DNA of 64,000 nt from Streptomyces beijiangensis (GTDB lineage: Bacteria; Actinomycetota; Actinomycetes; Streptomycetales; Streptomycetaceae), in NCBI RefSeq assembly GCF_017315755.1, contig NZ_JAFLRJ010000157.1, positions 461-64,460 on the forward strand, in the 5' to 3' direction. Under the pieces are notes generated by a model. That model was not told the origin of the DNA, made no database searches, and saw only the letters and a program-made list of their open reading frames with translations. The position numbers and the translations under genes are program-made. Shown piece after piece: positions 52,003 through 58,837 of this stretch; position 1 is the stretch's first letter, and every line of letters starts with the position of its first letter.

Positions 52003-54081
52003 CTAGCGCGCCCCTCCCCGGCTCCGTACCAGCAGCCAGAGGAAGTACGGCGTCCCGATCACCGCGGTGAGCAGACCGGCCCCGAGCTGGGCCGGTGCGA
52101 TCACCGTCCGGCCCACCACGTCCGCCGTGCACACCAGCACCGCACCGAGCAGCACCGCCACCGGCACCACCCGCGCATGCCGGCGGCCCACCAGTGCGCG
52201 TGCGGCGTGCGGGGCCACCAGGCCGACGAAGGCGATGGTCCCGGCGGCGGCGACGGCCGCCGCGCTCAACAGGACGGCCAGCGCCAGGAATCCCGGACGC
52301 GACCGGGCCAGCCCGAGGCCCAGCAGTCTCGGAGTGTCCTCGTCGAGCGAGACCAGGTCGAGTTCGGTACGCCGTACGACCGCGACAGCGAGCGCCGCCA
52401 CCAGCACGACGGCGAGCGGCAGCAGGTCCGGCATGGTCCGCCCGTACGTCGAACCGGACAGCCAGGTCAGCGCCTTGGTGGCGTTGAACGGGTCGGTGAG
52501 GACGATGAACAGGCTGATCAGGGCGGAGCTCGCGGTGGCGACCCCCATGCCGACCAGGACGAGACGGTTCTGCTGGAAGCCGCCGCGCGCGGACAGCCCG
52601 AAGACGATGACGGAGGCCAGGGCCGCGCCCGCGAAGGCCGCACCGGCGAGCGCCGTGGGACCGGCCGACGGCACGGACGTCAGAAGGATCACCGCGCCGA
52701 GCGCGGCTCCGCCGGAGACGCCCATGACGCCCGGTTCGGCGAGCGGATTGCGGGTCACCGCCTGGACCAGGGTGCCTGCCAGTGCGAGGGCCGCACCCGC
52801 GAGGAGGGCGGCGAGCACGCGCGGCACCCGGGTGTCGAGGACGAACGTGACGGCCCGGCCCGACCTGCCCTGCGCCCAGTTCATGACATCGCCGAACAAC
52901 AGCTTGGTGTCGCCGAGCAGTACGGAGGCGACGGTCAGCGCGATCAGTACCGCCACCAGCGTCCCGGCCACGGCCAGGAAGACGGCCCGGCTGCGGATGC
53001 GCAACCGGTCGGGCGCGGCGGCGGCCCCGCTGTCCCGGCCCCTGGTCGCCAGTCCCACCAGGAACACAGCGCCGAGCAGACTCGTCACCACACCGGTCGG
53101 CACGGCCACCGCCACGTCGGCCGGCACCAGTGTCCGCAGGACGACGTCCGAGCCGAGGACCAGGGCCGCACCGGCCAGCGCGGACACCGCCACATTCGTA
53201 CGCAAGCGGGAGAAGGCGCGGTAGCGGCGTGCCGGCAGGCGTACGGCGGCCGGGGCGCAGAGCCCGACGAAGCCGATCGGGCCCGCGAGGGTGACGGCCG
53301 CGGCGGACAGCAGGGCGCAGAGCACGACGGTGGTGACACGGGTGGCCCGCACCGGTACGCCCAGACCCCGCGCGGCGTCGTCGCCGAGCGCCAGGGCGTC
53401 GACCCGGCGGGCGACCAGCAGCAGTCCCGCGAGACCGGCGAGAGCGAGCGGCACCATCCAGAGCACCCCGCCGAAACCGTTCTGCGCGATGCTGCCCTGG
53501 TTCCAGGCGTACAGCCCCTGCGTCTGTACGGGGAACAGCAGCAGCAGTCCTTCCGTGACGGAGCTGAGGCCGAGGGTGAGGGCGCTGCCCGCCAGGACCA
53601 GCCGTACGGTCCCGGCTCCCAGCCCCGACATGCCGAGCACGACGGCCGCAGCCGCCAGGCCGCCGACGAAGGCGACGCCCGACGAGGCGAGCAGCGGCAG
53701 CGAGACGCCGGTCGCGGCGACAAGTCCGAGCGAGAGATAGGAACCGGCGTTGACCGCCAGGGTGTCGGGCGCGGCGAGCACATTGCGGCTGACGGCCTGG
53801 AGGGCGGCGCCCGCCATGCCGAGCACCGCCCCGACGAACAGTCCGGCGGCCATGCGCGGCAGCCGTGAGGCGATGACGACGGAGGCGTCGGCCGGGTCGG
53901 CCTGCCCGGTGAGCGCCTTCCAGACCTCTGCGGCGCCGACGGCGGCTGTGCCCTGCGCGATGTCGACGACGGCGAGTGCGGTGACCAGCAGGACGAGCAC
54001 GGCCGTCACCGCTGCCGCGCCGCCCTTCCGGGAAGCCGCCGCCGCGGTGGGGCCGGCGGGAACGGTGGTGGTGACGGCCAT
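52003..54081 (-). CDS. Fused FecCD-type iron-siderophore ABC permease
   Basis: A 692-aa membrane protein formed by two tandem FecCD permease units (~residues 20-345 and ~360-690), each with ~10 helices, like FhuB. Paired motifs recur: RLPRMAAGLFVGAVLGMAGA with RVPRVLAALLAGAALALAGT, LGSDVV with TADVV, and a GFVGL..P segment in both halves. The fusion supplies both halves of the channel from one chain. It ends an operon whose upstream genes encode the ATPase and binding protein, and it starts 22 bp after the latter. Confidence 0.9.
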   Translation of the reverse strand: MAVTTTVPAGPTAAAASRKGGAAAVTAVLVLLVTALAVVDIAQGTAAVGAAEVWKALTGQADPADASVVIASRLPRMAAGLFVGAVLGMAGAALQAVSRNVLAAPDTLAVNAGSYLSLGLVAATGVSLPLLASSGVAFVGGLAAAAVVLGMSGLGAGTVRLVLAGSALTLGLSSVTEGLLLLFPVQTQGLYAWNQGSIAQNGFGGVLWMVPLALAGLAGLLLVARRVDALALGDDAARGLGVPVRATRVTTVVLCALLSAAAVTLAGPIGFVGLCAPAAVRLPARRYRAFSRLRTNVAVSALAGAALVLGSDVVLRTLVPADVAVAVPTGVVTSLLGAVFLVGLATRGRDSGAAAAPDRLRIRSRAVFLAVAGTLVAVLIALTVASVLLGDTKLLFGDVMNWAQGRSGRAVTFVLDTRVPRVLAALLAGAALALAGTLVQAVTRNPLAEPGVMGVSGGAALGAVILLTSVPSAGPTALAGAAFAGAALASVIVFGLSARGGFQQNRLVLVGMGVATASSALISLFIVLTDPFNATKALTWLSGSTYGRTMPDLLPLAVVLVAALAVAVVRRTELDLVSLDEDTPRLLGLGLARSRPGFLALAVLLSAAAVAAAGTIAFVGLVAPHAARALVGRRHARVVPVAVLLGAVLVCTADVVGRTVIAPAQLGAGLLTAVIGTPYFLWLLVRSRGGAR

Positions 54082-54103
54082 GATGTCTACGTGCGTCCCG
54101 TCG

Positions 54104-55084
54104 TCACTTCTTCAGCGCGGCGACGACGGAGTCGACGTACGACTCCATCGACGCGGTGCCGCCGAACATCCACACGCCGTCGGGCAGCCGGTGCACATTG
54201 CCCGCCTTCACGAACGGAAGCGACTTCCACACCGCGTTGCCCGCGAGCGCTCCGGTGAACGGTGTGCTGCTCTTGTCGTCGTCGCTGGCGATGTACGCGA
54301 ACTCCACGTCACCGAGCCTGGTCAGGCCCTCGACGTCGGTGGTGGCGAGCCCGTAGGCCAGGTCGCCCTTCATCGTCCAGGGGTTCTTCAGCCCGAGCTT
54401 CTCGTTCACGGCGCCGAGCAGCGAACCGCTGGTGTACGGCCGGATGGAGACCTGATTACCGGTCACATACCCGTCGGCGAAGGCGAGTTCGGTCCCCTTG
54501 TGACCGGACTTCTCCAGCTCCTGCCTGCCTTCGGCGAGCTTCGCCTCGAAGCCCTTCTTGAGCTCGCCGGCGCGGGCCGTGGTGCCGGTGGCCTTGGCGA
54601 TCATGTCCAGATCGCTGTTCATCCGGCCGATCGGGTCGGCTGCGTCGGCCGCCTTCAGGTCGAGCACCGGGGCTGTCTTCCGCAGCTGCGTGAGGGCGGC
54701 CGCGGGCAGGTCGCTGGTGGCGACGATGAGATCGGGCGCGAGAGCGGCGACGGTGTCCATGCTGGGCTCGCCGCGGGTGCCGATGTCCTTCGGCGTGTTC
54801 GTCAACGGGGCTGCCTTGTCCCAGGACTTGTACCCCTTGACGTCGGCGACACCTGCCGGCGCGACACCCAGCGAGACCAGGTGCTCGACGACGTTCCACT
54901 CGGTCCCGACGACCTTCTTCGCGGGCCCGTCGAGCTCCACCTTCTTACCGTCCGCGCCGGTGAGGGTGATGTGCTCGGCGGGCTTGTTCTCCGCCTGGTC
55001 CGCGGCGGGTTCGGACGTACCGCACGCGCTCAGGGCGAGCATGGCGGTGGTGGCCGCGGCGGCGGTGAGGAGGAGTCGTCTCAT
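54104..55084 (-). CDS. Iron-siderophore-binding lipoprotein
   Basis: A 326-aa lipoprotein; the signal peptide ends in LALSAC (Cys ~21). The FecB/BtuF-type fold is evident from VVGTEWNVVEHLVSLGVAPAG, GEPSMDTVAALAPDLIVAT and the long connecting helix. It captures ferric siderophore at the outer membrane face for the fused permease. The ATG at 55084 overlaps the ATPase stop by 4 nt (ATGA), so it is coupled to it. The exact siderophore is unknown. Confidence 0.9.
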   Translation of the reverse strand: MRRLLLTAAAATTAMLALSACGTSEPAADQAENKPAEHITLTGADGKKVELDGPAKKVVGTEWNVVEHLVSLGVAPAGVADVKGYKSWDKAAPLTNTPKDIGTRGEPSMDTVAALAPDLIVATSDLPAAALTQLRKTAPVLDLKAADAADPIGRMNSDLDMIAKATGTTARAGELKKGFEAKLAEGRQELEKSGHKGTELAFADGYVTGNQVSIRPYTSGSLLGAVNEKLGLKNPWTMKGDLAYGLATTDVEGLTRLGDVEFAYIASDDDKSSTPFTGALAGNAVWKSLPFVKAGNVHRLPDGVWMFGGTASMESYVDSVVAALKK

Positions 55085-55971
55085 GAGGTGGTACTGAGCC
55101 TTTCGCTGTGCGCGTGGTGCACTTGGTGCGTGTTCCGTCGTGTGTGGTGCCGGCCGATGGCGCGGGTGCGCAGCCGCCCGGTCAGCGGATCGGTGGAGAC
55201 CTCGATACGGATGCCGTACGTCTCGGTCAGGCGCTCCGGGGTGAGTACGCCGTCCGGCTCCCCGTCGGCGATCACCCGTCCGTCCCTGAGCAGCACGATC
55301 CGGTCGGCGACTGCCGCCGCCTGGTCCAGGTCGTGCAGCACCACGCCGACGGCGATGCCGTGGTCGTCCGCCAAGTCCCGTATCAGATCGAGCAGTTCCA
55401 CCTGGTACCGCAGGTCGAGGTAGGTCGTCGGCTCGTCGAGGAGCAGTACGCCGGTCTCCTGCGCGAGACAGCCCGCGAGCCACACGCGCTGGAGCTGGCC
55501 GCCGGAGAGGTGCTCGGCACCCCGCTCGGCCAGTTCGGCGACCCCGGTCATCCCGAGCGCCCGCTCCACGGCCGCGTGCCCGCCCGGATCGGCCCGCCCC
55601 CAGCGGCCCCGGTACGGATACCGCCCGAACTCCACGACGTCCCGCACGGTGAGCCCGCTGGGTGTGGGCCGCCCCTGGGTCAGCAGCGCCACCTGCCGCG
55701 AGAACTCACGGGGCGTCAGCGCGAAGCCGTCCGTGCCGTCGTCGAGGGTCAGCGCCGCGGTCCGCGCCCGCTGCAATCGCGCCACGGTCCGCAACAGCGT
55801 CGACTTCCCACTGCCGTTCGGCCCGACCAGTACGGTCACCCGTCCGGGCGAAAGGTCCAGGAACGCCTCGTGCACGACGTCGACACCGTCGTACGCCACG
55901 GTGACACCCGTGGCCGAGAGGGTGTGGCCGCGCGGTGGCGCGGCCCGGGTAAGTTCTTCACCGACTTTCAC
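55081..55971 (-). CDS. Iron-siderophore ABC transporter ATP-binding protein
   Basis: A 296-aa ATPase of the FecE/FhuC class. Walker A VGPNGSGKSTL (~49), Q-loop VALLTQGRP, signature HLSGGQLQRVW, Walker B GVLLLDEPT and H-loop VLHDLDQA are intact. A His/Arg-rich C-terminal tail is extra. The GTG at 55971 has no Shine-Dalgarno, but TAACCT lies 7 nt upstream, so the transcript is probably leaderless. That -10 is inside a near-perfect iron box, so the operon should be repressed by DmdR/IdeR when iron is plentiful. Confidence 0.9.
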   Translation of the reverse strand: MKVGEELTRAAPPRGHTLSATGVTVAYDGVDVVHEAFLDLSPGRVTVLVGPNGSGKSTLLRTVARLQRARTAALTLDDGTDGFALTPREFSRQVALLTQGRPTPSGLTVRDVVEFGRYPYRGRWGRADPGGHAAVERALGMTGVAELAERGAEHLSGGQLQRVWLAGCLAQETGVLLLDEPTTYLDLRYQVELLDLIRDLADDHGIAVGVVLHDLDQAAAVADRIVLLRDGRVIADGEPDGVLTPERLTETYGIRIEVSTDPLTGRLRTRAIGRHHTRRNTHQVHHAHSERLSTTS

Positions 55972-56094: not shown

Positions 56095-56724
56095 ATGCCC
56101 AAGCTTCGCGTACACAACCTCACGGTCACCCTGGACGGCTTCGCCTCCGGCGTCGGCCAGCGCCCCGGCGCACCCTTCGGCGACGGCGTCGACGGGCTGC
56201 ACGAATGGGCCTTCGCCGGGATGCGGGAACTGACCGACGGCAAGGGCGGGATCGACGCCGGGTGGATCGAGCGCGGCGACGAGAACATCGGCGCGACCAT
56301 CATGGGGCGCAATATGTTCGGCCCCGTGCGTGGACCGTGGCAGGACGAGTCATGGACGGGCTGGTGGGGCGAGAACCCGCCGTACCACCACGATGTGTTC
56401 GTCCACACCCACCATCTGCGCCCCTCACAGCCCATGGAGGGCGGGACCGTCTTCCACTTCACGGACGAGCCGGTCGAGACCGTGCTGCGGCGGGCGTTCG
56501 ACGCCGCGGGCGGGCAGGACGTACGGATCGGCGGCGGTCCGGCCACCGTCCAGCAGTATCTGCGCGCCGGTCTGGTCGACGAGATGCATGTGGTCGTCGT
56601 CCCGCTCCTCGCCGGCCGGGGCGAGCGTCTCTTCGACGACCTGGGGGACGCGCTCGACGGCTATCGGGTCGCCGAGGTGGTCGCCTCCCCTGCCGCCACG
56701 CACTCCCTGCTGGTGCGGCGCTGA
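56095..56724 (+). CDS. Dihydrofolate reductase-like (RibD C-terminal family) protein
   Basis: A 209-aa reductase-fold protein with the family layout: NLTVTLDGFASG at the start, IGATIMGRNMFG (cofactor loop, ~70), DVRIGGGPATVQQYLRAGLVDEMHV and PLLAGRGERLFDD. It is one of the dihydrofolate reductase-like proteins of unknown substrate found widely in Streptomyces. The ATG at 56095 has AAGGAG upstream, so the earlier in-frame start is rejected. It lies between the iron operon and the HTH-MurA gene. Confidence 0.87.
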   Translation: MPKLRVHNLTVTLDGFASGVGQRPGAPFGDGVDGLHEWAFAGMRELTDGKGGIDAGWIERGDENIGATIMGRNMFGPVRGPWQDESWTGWWGENPPYHHDVFVHTHHLRPSQPMEGGTVFHFTDEPVETVLRRAFDAAGGQDVRIGGGPATVQQYLRAGLVDEMHVVVVPLLAGRGERLFDDLGDALDGYRVAEVVASPAATHSLLVRR

Positions 56725-56759
56725 GATCCATCGCATGATCACCCCGATGGCCCACCCCC

Positions 56760-56785
56760 GAGATGCGGCATCTCATATCTGAGAT
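56760..56785 (+). promoter_or_regulatory. Overlapping GAGAT palindromes at the HTH-MurA promoter
   Basis: GAGATGC-G-GCATCTC (56760-56774) overlaps ATCTCA-N4-TGAGAT (56770-56785), giving three GAGAT/ATCTC half-sites about one helical turn apart. The last one merges with a TAACCT -10 (56785-56790), 6 nt from the ATG. This is a likely binding site for the protein's own HTH domain. Confidence 0.55.
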
Positions 56786-56796
56786 AACCTGCCGAT

Positions 56797-58323
56797 ATGG
56801 CAGACGACTACCTCGTACGTATCGGCAAGCTCATCCGTGACGCCCGTCAGCACCGGGGCTGGACACAGAGTCAGCTTGCCGATGCGCTCTCCACCAGCCA
56901 GAGCGCGGTGAACCGCATCGAGCGCGGCAACCAGAACATCAGCCTTGAGATGATCGCGCGTATCGGCGAGGCGCTCGACAGCGAGATCGTGTCGCTGGGT
57001 TACGCCGGACCGATGCATCTGCGTGTCGTCGGCGGCCGCCGCCTCTCGGGCTCGATCGACGTCAAGACGAGCAAGAACGCGTGTGTGGCACTCCTCTGCG
57101 CCTCCCTGCTCAACAAGGGCCGTACCGTGCTGCGCAGGGTGGCGCGCATCGAAGAGGTCTACCGGCTCCTGGAGGTCCTCAACTCCATCGGTGTGCGCAC
57201 CCGTTGGATCAACGACGGCAAGGACCTGGAGATCGTGCCGCCCGCGCGCCTGGAGATGGACGCGATGGACGCGGAGGCCGCGCGCCGCACCCGCTCGATC
57301 ATCATGTTCCTTGGCCCGCTGCTGCACCGCATGGACCGCTTCAAGCTGCCGTACGCCGGCGGCTGCGACCTCGGTACGCGCACGATCGAGCCGCACATGA
57401 TCGCGCTGCGCCGCTTCGGCCTGGACATCTCCGCGACGGAGGGCATCTACCACGCCGAGGTGCAGCGCACCTCCCCCGACCGCCCGATCGTGCTGACCGA
57501 GCGCGGCGACACGGTGACCGAGAACGCGCTGCTGGCCGCCGCACGCAACGCCGGTACGACCGTGATCCGTAACGCCTCGTCCAACTACATGGTCCAGGAC
57601 CTCTGCTTCTTCCTGGAGGCCCTGGGCGTACGGGTCGACGGCGTCGGAACCACGACGCTGACCGTGCACGGGGTGCCGGAGATCGACGTGGACGTCGACT
57701 ACTCGCCCTCGGAGGACCCGGTCGAGGCGATGAGCCTGCTGGCCGCTGCCGTGGTGACCGAGTCGGAGCTGACGATCCGCCGGGTGCCGATCGAGTTCCT
57801 GGAGATCGAACTCGCGGTCCTGGAGGAGATGGGACTCGACCACGACCGCAGCGCGGAGTACCCGGCGGACAACGGGCGGACCCGCCTCATCGATCTGACG
57901 GTGCGGCCCTCGAAGCTCGAGGCGCCGATCGACAAGATCCACCCGATGCCCTTCCCCGGCCTCAACATCGACAACGTGCCGTTCTTCGCGGCGATCGCGG
58001 CCGTCGCTCAGGGCCAGACCCTGATCCACGACTGGGTCTACGACAACCGCGCGATCTATCTGACCGATCTGAACCGGCTGGGCGGGCGCCTCCAACTCCT
58101 GGACCCGCACCGGGTGCTGGTCGAAGGACCGACCCGGTGGCGGGCCGCCGAGATGATGTGCCCGCCCGCGCTGCGGCCCGCGGTGGTGGTGCTGCTCGCG
58201 ATGATGGCGGCCGAGGGCACCTCGGTGCTGCGGAACGTCTATGTCATCAACCGCGGTTACGAGGACCTGGCGGAGCGACTGAACTCGGTGGGCGCGCAGA
58301 TCGAGATCTTCCGCGACATCTGA
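56797..58323 (+). CDS. murA2: HTH-domain fusion to a MurA-like enolpyruvyltransferase
   Basis: A 508-aa protein. Residues 1-68 are an XRE-type helix-turn-helix (GWTQSQLADALSTSQSAVNR). Residues ~73-508 are a UDP-GlcNAc enolpyruvyl transferase (EPT) domain. Active-site landmarks survive: Lys-Asn in KTSKNACVALL (K93-N94), the PEP-binding Cys in AGGCDLGTR (Cys190) and Arg195. The catalytic-Asp region is altered (PFPGLNIDNVPFF). Streptomyces usually has another, standard murA elsewhere, so this second copy may be a regulator, an enzyme or both. It is probably leaderless. I recall SCO5998 as the equivalent. Confidence 0.85.
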   Translation: MADDYLVRIGKLIRDARQHRGWTQSQLADALSTSQSAVNRIERGNQNISLEMIARIGEALDSEIVSLGYAGPMHLRVVGGRRLSGSIDVKTSKNACVALLCASLLNKGRTVLRRVARIEEVYRLLEVLNSIGVRTRWINDGKDLEIVPPARLEMDAMDAEAARRTRSIIMFLGPLLHRMDRFKLPYAGGCDLGTRTIEPHMIALRRFGLDISATEGIYHAEVQRTSPDRPIVLTERGDTVTENALLAAARNAGTTVIRNASSNYMVQDLCFFLEALGVRVDGVGTTTLTVHGVPEIDVDVDYSPSEDPVEAMSLLAAAVVTESELTIRRVPIEFLEIELAVLEEMGLDHDRSAEYPADNGRTRLIDLTVRPSKLEAPIDKIHPMPFPGLNIDNVPFFAAIAAVAQGQTLIHDWVYDNRAIYLTDLNRLGGRLQLLDPHRVLVEGPTRWRAAEMMCPPALRPAVVVLLAMMAAEGTSVLRNVYVINRGYEDLAERLNSVGAQIEIFRDI

Positions 58324-58330
58324 ACCACAG

Positions 58331-58837
58331 GTGCCGCGGCATCGCGCCATGGTGCGAAACCGGCTCCTGCCCTGCGACCTCAACCTTGCTCAACCCATGG
58401 TGTGGGCGCTGGTCAGCGGGAGCGATCCTGAGGACGGGTCGCTCCCGCTGACCCCGCTGCGCGTGATCACGATCCTGGGTGTCGGGACGGTCCAGGTCGC
58501 CCTGGTCTGTGTATGGCGACTGGTGGCGATGGTGCGACGCGGAACCGTGTTCTCCCACGCCGCCTTCCGGTACGTGGACGGCATCATCGGCGCGATCGTT
58601 GCGGCTGCTCTCGTGTGGTTCGCGGCCACGGCCATCAATGCGCCCGGCCAGCGGGACGATCCGGGCGTCACCGGCATCATGGGCAGGATCGGCGTGGCCA
58701 TCCTGGGAGTCGCGCTCATCGTGCTCGTGCTGCGGATACTGCTCACCCAGGCTGTCGCCCGCGACGTCGAAGCGGCGCATATGCAGGCCGAGTTGGACGA
58801 GGTGATCCGATACCGATCGCCGTCGACATCGACGTGA
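58331..58837 (+). pseudogene. DUF2975-type membrane protein, 5'-truncated
   Basis: The open frame encodes a recognisable C-terminal part of the DUF2975 family: TPLRVITILGVGTVQVALVCVWRL, VRRGTVFSHAAFRYVDGIIGA, two further helices and QAVARDVEAAHMQAELDEVI. The usual first membrane helix is missing; the first ~45 residues are unlike the family. The frame also reads past where the family normally stops, by ~8 residues, into the partner HTH gene. It is most likely a decayed gene, though expression of the stub cannot be excluded. The start is unclear (GTG 58331 or ATG 58397). Confidence 0.6.

Follow-up and report, generated by a model that had tools for sequence, protein, structure and literature searches.

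The window, that is, the whole 64,000-nucleotide stretch of Streptomyces beijiangensis DNA analyzed here, contains a gene that we take to be the Streptomyces murA2 (SCO5998, sven5810, vnz_28735). Its product consists of an N-terminal XRE domain, a short linker and an EPSP/MurA-fold domain. The features of the gene are as follows:

56797-58323, forward strand: murA2, encoding the HTH-MurA fusion of 508 amino acids (ORF translation and domain searches)
56833-56988, forward strand: XRE/HTH_3 domain, residues 13-64 (Pfam HTH_3)
56893-56922, forward strand: recognition-helix region T33-E42, TSQSAVNRIE (alignment of HTH domains)
57019-58320, forward strand: MurA/EPSP-fold domain, residues 75-508 (Pfam, NCBIfam, solved MurA structures and alignment)
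57364-57366, forward strand: Cys190, the equivalent of E. coli MurA Cys115 (Cys in 182/182 proteins)
57505-57513, forward strand: Gly237-Asp238-Thr239, in place of Ser162-Val163-Gly164 of the diphosphate-binding region (G-D-T in 182/182 proteins)

The Pfam model HTH_3 matched residues 13-64 (E = 9.8e-14; 51.6 bits against a cut-off of 23), the Pfam model EPSP_synthase matched residues 79-495 (E = 3.2e-43), and solved MurA structures aligned to residues 73-507. Alignment placed Lys93 and Cys190 at the positions of E. coli MurA Lys22 and Cys115, so that the fusion of an XRE domain to a MurA domain with both residues intact, as first proposed from the window alone, was borne out. MurA2 passed the NCBIfam MurA subfamily model PRK09369 (324.5 versus 297 bits) and failed both the murA equivalog cut-off of TIGR01072 (308.3 versus 392.7 bits) and, for EPSP synthase (AroA), the NCBIfam aroA equivalog cut-off (73.3 versus 287.25 bits). 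Among solved structures, C.BclI, C.AhdI and HipB were among the better matches to the HTH profile, with the designed DBP48 scoring highest. An alignment of 22 HTH domains, down to 45% identity to that of the window, left S34, Q35, A37, R40 and E42 invariant, the recognition helix contributing these five of the 13 invariant HTH positions. PADLOC matches concerned the HTH alone and carry no information on defence, and an AlphaFold2 model built from 30 near-identical sequences (mean pLDDT 43) was too poor to use.

The same genome encodes a separate canonical MurA on contig C1073, about 30-33% identical to MurA2, and a third, more distant MurA paralogue (28% identity) on contig C1549. The latter (G000:C1549:1828-3069, reverse strand, locus L003) aligns with E. 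coli MurA at 28% identity over most of its sequence, with a Cys at the 115 position and S-R-G where MurA has S-V-G. Upstream of murA2, unrelated iron-siderophore-type ABC import genes (permease fusion, binding protein and ATPase) occupy 52003-55971 on the reverse strand; they were named by eye, the ATPase by Pfam.

In excerpts of the published work, SCO5998 bears the name MurA2 and counts as one of two UDP-GlcNAc transferases, a DmdR1 site being predicted between it and acnA (PMC12161575), and its promoter is SigB-dependent (PMC8346170). The S. venezuelae murA2 promoter was footprinted by BldM-WhiI (excerpts of PMC4125116), and overexpression of murA2 during S. venezuelae exploration did not reproduce the whiI overexpression phenotype (excerpts of PMC11005364). 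The SCO5998 promoter segments printed in PMC8346170 were sought by sequence match in four loci. S. ardesiacus (L064) and S. tendae (L074) carry them ~335-355 bp ahead of the fusion gene, S. coelicoflavus (L062) carries one segment nearer to it, and the S. violaceoruber locus (L085) has none. Through these relatives of S. coelicolor, the names murA2 and SCO5998 can be tied to the fusion.

Matches to MurA2 at E <= 1e-100 were obtained in 245 of 246 Streptomyces genomes, the missing genome being 82% complete, and all Streptomyces matches listed span residues 1-508. A class-wide sample gave matches in 116 of 394 genomes (E <= 1e-58). The HTH was covered as well in 114 of the 116 matches, spread over 25 of the 137 genera with identity down to 65% (three of these 114 are split by frame breaks or gaps); the remaining two, from one further genus, comprise the MurA part only. 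Family f35 stood at 170 of 186 genomes and 49 of 53 genera at E <= 1e-100, and its genus g46 at 0 of 11 sampled genomes. Because all 11 g46 genomes are without a match, murA2 is dispensable, and this genus provides a natural deletion for comparative metabolomics. A sample of 296 genomes across the phylum yielded no fusion outside the class, the five same-phylum matches covering the MurA part only (E <= 1e-62). A tblastn search of PLSDB found MurA2 at 87% identity in Nonomuraea gerenzanensis. The gene is apparently split by frame breaks or gaps at L210/L248 (G119), L309/L319 (G339), L314/L318 (G247), L313/L320 (G1023) and L315/L321 (G1034), as pseudogenes or through sequencing errors.

The region preceding the start codon carries these features:

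56739-56754, forward strand: BldM-WhiI-like activator site TCACCCCGATGGCCCA, matching in reverse complement 10 of the 12 specified bases of the Group II consensus published in PMC4125116 (excerpts)
56760-56774, no strand assigned: outer dyad GAGATGCGGCATCTC, noted in the original prediction
56769-56786, no strand assigned: conserved operator CATCTCATATCTGAGATA, family consensus TAWCTCA-N4-TGAGWTA (cross-locus comparison)
56785-56790, forward strand: -10 element TAACCT (TANNNT) of a putative leaderless promoter, with two bases common to the operator, 6 nt before the start codon

The three GAGAT half-sites that had been proposed are all present in the window, the third as GAGATG at 56760-56765. 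The outer dyad, however, occurs in only 4 of 195 loci (not deduplicated), and the conserved operator is the inner dyad. Its core ATCTCA-N4-TGAGAT, at 56770-56785, is the sole exact match in the window; with up to two mismatches there are four matches versus 0.79 expected, and four were reached in 0 of 100 shuffles. Conservation was followed in 182 loci, drawn from 212 by removing 16 pattern-fetched loci, one with an N at the start and 11 identical ones. No variation occurs in this set at CTCA (positions 4-7), GA (13-14) or the final TA, and the remaining arm positions are mostly constant too; C occupies position 1 in 123 of the 182, chiefly in Streptomyces. Strict covariation of the arms is not claimed, as the choice between A and T at position 3 is independent in the two half-sites.

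In 206 of 209 loci (not deduplicated), 8-13 nt separate the end of the dyad from the start codon. A TANNNT -10 element begins with the final two bases of the dyad in 179 of 182 loci, and it stands 6-7 nt ahead of the start codon in 167 of the 182. For the inner dyad, the proposed merging with the -10 element holds across the family; that transcription is leaderless, the other part of the proposal, is suggested by the sequence. Part of the conservation of the dyad belongs to the overlapped -10. The BldM-WhiI-like site of the window lies at -58 to -43, outside the dyad. Counting distinct 120-nt upstreams only, such a site scores at least 9/12 in 119 of 144 Streptomyces upstreams, and 113 of the 119 start 56-60 nt before the start codon; shuffled sequences scored at least 9 in 15% and 10 in 1.1% of cases. 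Outside Streptomyces the site is not enriched (6 of 40 at 9/12 or better, the same as shuffles). A search of 56700-58500 for a sigma-70-type -35/-10 pair gave none, as would be expected if the murA2 promoter depends on an activator.

The presence of the dyad was then compared with the state of the recognition helix in 253 distinct loci (from 274, minus 19 identical, one with an N and one fragment; pattern-fetched loci and matches below 55% identity were excluded, and L285, which reads TSQNVVAR, was counted as intact). At least 11 of 14 dyad positions were present in 247 of the 248 loci with an intact helix, the sole exception, L335, having 10/14, and in 0 of the 5 loci with a degenerate or deleted HTH. 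Shuffled upstreams reached at least 11/14 in about 0.07% of cases. The five losses represent two evolutionary events, each with a relative keeping both helix and dyad. In genus g59, G910 has both and G911, G909, G311 and G119 have neither; in genus g81, G166 has both and G926 (L310) lacks the dyad and the entire HTH, its MurA2 beginning at the enzyme domain. Dyads upstream of orthologues, on which the original prediction had staked itself, were thus looked for and found, and its proposal that the protein regulates its own gene gains support from the joint presence and loss of helix and dyad.

The site is also nearly unique in the genomes that carry it. Of 110 distinct genomes, 47 have the strict 18-mer, each in a single copy (22 of 55 and 25 of 56 in two samples, with G086 common to both and counted once in the totals), and it lies at murA2 in 46 of the 47 (positions compared by eye; G1086 and G977 settled separately). 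None of the 27 distinct genomes lacking a MurA2 match has it, nor do the five whose HTH is degenerate or absent. No strict copy occurs in 31 of the 78 genomes with MurA2 and a presumably intact HTH, the promoters examined carrying variants of one to three bases. The only strict site away from murA2 is in G977, ~50 bp upstream of an sdhC-like gene (L342, position 1552-1569); at its murA2 promoter, G977 carries the dyad with one base changed. The looser 16-mer is located at murA2 in 16 of 19 Streptomyces genomes, the rest being two variants and one unreadable start. Twelve non-Streptomyces genomes in which no murA2 was found were scanned with this looser form, and nine had at least one site, elsewhere than at murA2, some at GntR-type promoters.

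Other sites were considered as possible further targets. The genome of the window has another exact 16-mer beside a MarR-type gene (named by eye from its translation) and seven further one-mismatch sites, one of which adjoins that same gene. Two copies of ATCTCAACGTTGAGA(T/G), ~50 bp apart, were seen beside a MarR-like regulator gene at L125 (G000:C146:10340), and in family f3, in genomes with no murA2 match (L118, L119, L121, L122), a similar palindrome, ATCTCATATATGAGAT, lies just upstream of GntR-like regulator genes (by eye). A search for a regulon beyond the own gene gave nine one-mismatch loci in five related Streptomyces genomes, none judged a credible promoter: six are inside called reading frames, and the remaining ones are L194, L197 and L200. 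The sole target that recurs consistently for MurA2 is its own gene. Coarse ORF clustering, in which many of the predicted ORFs resembled antisense artefacts due to high G+C content, revealed no neighbor family shared by most loci; outside Streptomyces the largest cluster, with 11 of 40 loci, resembled by eye a glycerophosphodiester phosphodiesterase. Because conservation, natural losses and uniqueness of the site agree, the dyad is best read as the target of the HTH, binding of which to the murA2 promoter is very probable, and autoregulation of murA2 is strongly supported by these comparisons.

The enzyme half was examined in 182 distinct MurA2 proteins, leaving out the truncated L210, L104, pattern-fetched loci and identical proteins. 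The equivalents of K22, N23, R91, C115, R120, D305, R331, R371 and R397, the catalytic and PEP-site residues, are invariant in 182/182 and are also kept in the three full-length g59 proteins that have lost the helix. MurA2 thus shares with E. coli and canonical actinobacterial MurA the fold and the Cys115/Lys22/Asp305/Arg397 machinery, but is 27% identical to the E. coli enzyme and differs in its extra HTH, G-D-T, I304 and P369. These replacements (S162-V163-G164 to G-D-T, T304 to I and D369 to P) are found in 182/182 MurA2 proteins. The canonical MurA of the same genome and four canonical MurAs of the same order retain S-V-G, T304 and D369. Replacements at K160, P121 and L124 were rejected as evidence, since canonical MurAs vary there too. 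S162-V163-G164 is described as the biphosphate binding region of MurA (excerpts of PMC8698320), and the negative charge brought into this loop argues against ordinary binding of UDP-GlcNAc. The suggestion that the protein senses UDP-GlcNAc through a MurA-like pocket is therefore weakened. The replacement of D369 by Pro could lower or abolish catalysis. Taken with the invariant residues, the changes suggest that MurA2 probably remains an active enolpyruvyl-transferase whose acceptor has changed; this acceptor would be other than UDP-GlcNAc or handled differently from it.

If catalysis were abolished, MurA2 could be purely a transcription factor, its dead MurA domain serving as a ligand sensor alone. 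The fixed D369 to Pro change and altered acceptor loop, as well as the strong conservation of the operator, would fit. We consider this unlikely, as the nine catalytic and PEP-site residues never vary in the 182 proteins, G926 retains the enzyme domain without the HTH, the three helix-lost species keep all nine residues, and a single consistent target, the own gene, would be an odd regulon for a dedicated sensor. Rather than as an enzyme turned transcription factor, the original description, MurA2 is probably better read as an enzyme that also regulates itself, because its active-site residues are invariant and its enzyme domain outlasts the loss of the helix.

Intact Cys/Lys/Arg machinery would equally be expected of an ordinary second MurA, a redundant UDP-GlcNAc enolpyruvyl-transferase for sporulation whose HTH is vestigial or merely structural. 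The description of SCO5998 as one of two UDP-GlcNAc transferases (excerpts of PMC12161575) and the reports, also seen in excerpt, of murA2 as a BldM-WhiI and SigB target agree with such a role. This explanation appears quite improbable: a vestigial HTH would hardly hold five of the 13 invariant positions in its recognition helix and lose them together with the operator, the diphosphate loop, T304 and D369 are replaced in every MurA2 and kept in the canonical MurA of the same genome, and the murA equivalog cut-off was failed.

We consider it likely, from these sequence comparisons, that MurA2 is an autoregulated bifunctional protein, with an XRE domain acting on its own dyad in autorepression and a probably working enolpyruvyl-transferase with a changed acceptor, whose ligand would adjust DNA binding. 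The N-terminal XRE domain would bind the inner dyad TAWCTCA-N4-TGAGWTA, presumably as a dimer. The dyad fills the -35/-10 spacer and overlaps the -10 of what would be the gene's own leaderless promoter, so that bound MurA2 would exclude RNA polymerase; we infer repression because a bound dimer would lie across both spacer and -10. In Streptomyces, the BldM-WhiI-like site (56739-56754) may supply activation during sporulation. With PEP and the Cys/Lys/Arg machinery of MurA, the C-terminal domain would most likely act on an acceptor that is not UDP-GlcNAc or is handled in a different way, and binding of substrate or product would probably adjust DNA binding, by analogy with other enzymes with an HTH.

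The opposite sign of control, in which MurA2 on the dyad activates its own promoter in positive feedback, would be compatible with the missing sigma-70-type pair in 56700-58500. It would also be compatible with the resemblance of the HTH to restriction-control C proteins, among its better matches, which both activate and repress. A dyad in the spacer and overlapping the -10 is nevertheless in a repressor position, and the Streptomyces promoters already have an upstream activator site, the BldM-WhiI-like one, making activation by MurA2 rather improbable. It is very unlikely that the dyad belongs to another conserved regulator, with the MurA2 HTH acting elsewhere or not at all: similar 16-mers do occur at MarR- and GntR-type genes and Streptomyces murA2 has known regulators (according to the excerpts cited), but the site is tied to the gene and not to the genome, with strict copies in 0 of 27 genomes without MurA2 and in 0 of 5 that have lost the helix or HTH, and the BldM-WhiI-like site is outside the dyad and not enriched outside Streptomyces.

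A parallel is HipB, which autoregulates and whose operator TATCC-N8-GGATA has a spacing and geometry equal to the TATCT-N8-AGATA at murA2 (excerpts of PMC3376134). HipB, C.AhdI and C.BclI are, however, small stand-alone proteins, whereas the HTH of MurA2 is joined to an enzyme. In this it resembles BirA, PutA and NadR, metabolic enzymes with a DNA-binding domain, or "trigger enzymes," which act on transcription through their own HTH, as MurA2 would. MurA2 differs from these in its enzyme class (an enolpyruvyl transferase) and in having its own gene as the only consistent target found, and its coupling to a ligand is putative. The excerpts of PMC12161575, PMC8346170, PMC11005364 and PMC4125116 contain no mention of the HTH, the dyad or the altered acceptor pocket. 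Titles and abstracts of the open-licence PMC literature gave no description of a MurA2 DNA-binding domain or operator among the matches listed. The dyad motif may be in the supplement of a wide survey of XRE operators (PMC12565409). An enzyme with a DNA-binding head is a known arrangement; as far as our literature searches reach, an enolpyruvyl-transferase with a private, class-wide operator is new.

Extended to the whole class, these observations lead to a model that we advance tentatively, as plausible rather than probable. The MurA2 proteins would form a class-wide group of self-regulating enolpyruvyl-transferases with an acceptor other than UDP-GlcNAc. The level of that acceptor or of PEP would be read in the active site, and a single operator at a leaderless -10 would receive the signal, so that sensor, enzyme and repressor are combined in one protein with a one-gene regulon. 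The gene is annotated as a spare copy of the fosfomycin target, yet it is present in almost every sampled Streptomyces genome and in many other Actinomycetes, with a tightly linked private operator and a pocket not expected to accommodate UDP-GlcNAc in the normal manner. If this reading is true, genome annotations and the developmental literature give MurA2 a wrong or incomplete function, and a new enolpyruvyl acceptor awaits discovery. MurA2 and its dyad would then be a one-protein, one-site feedback switch, easily tested and perhaps usable as a sensor.
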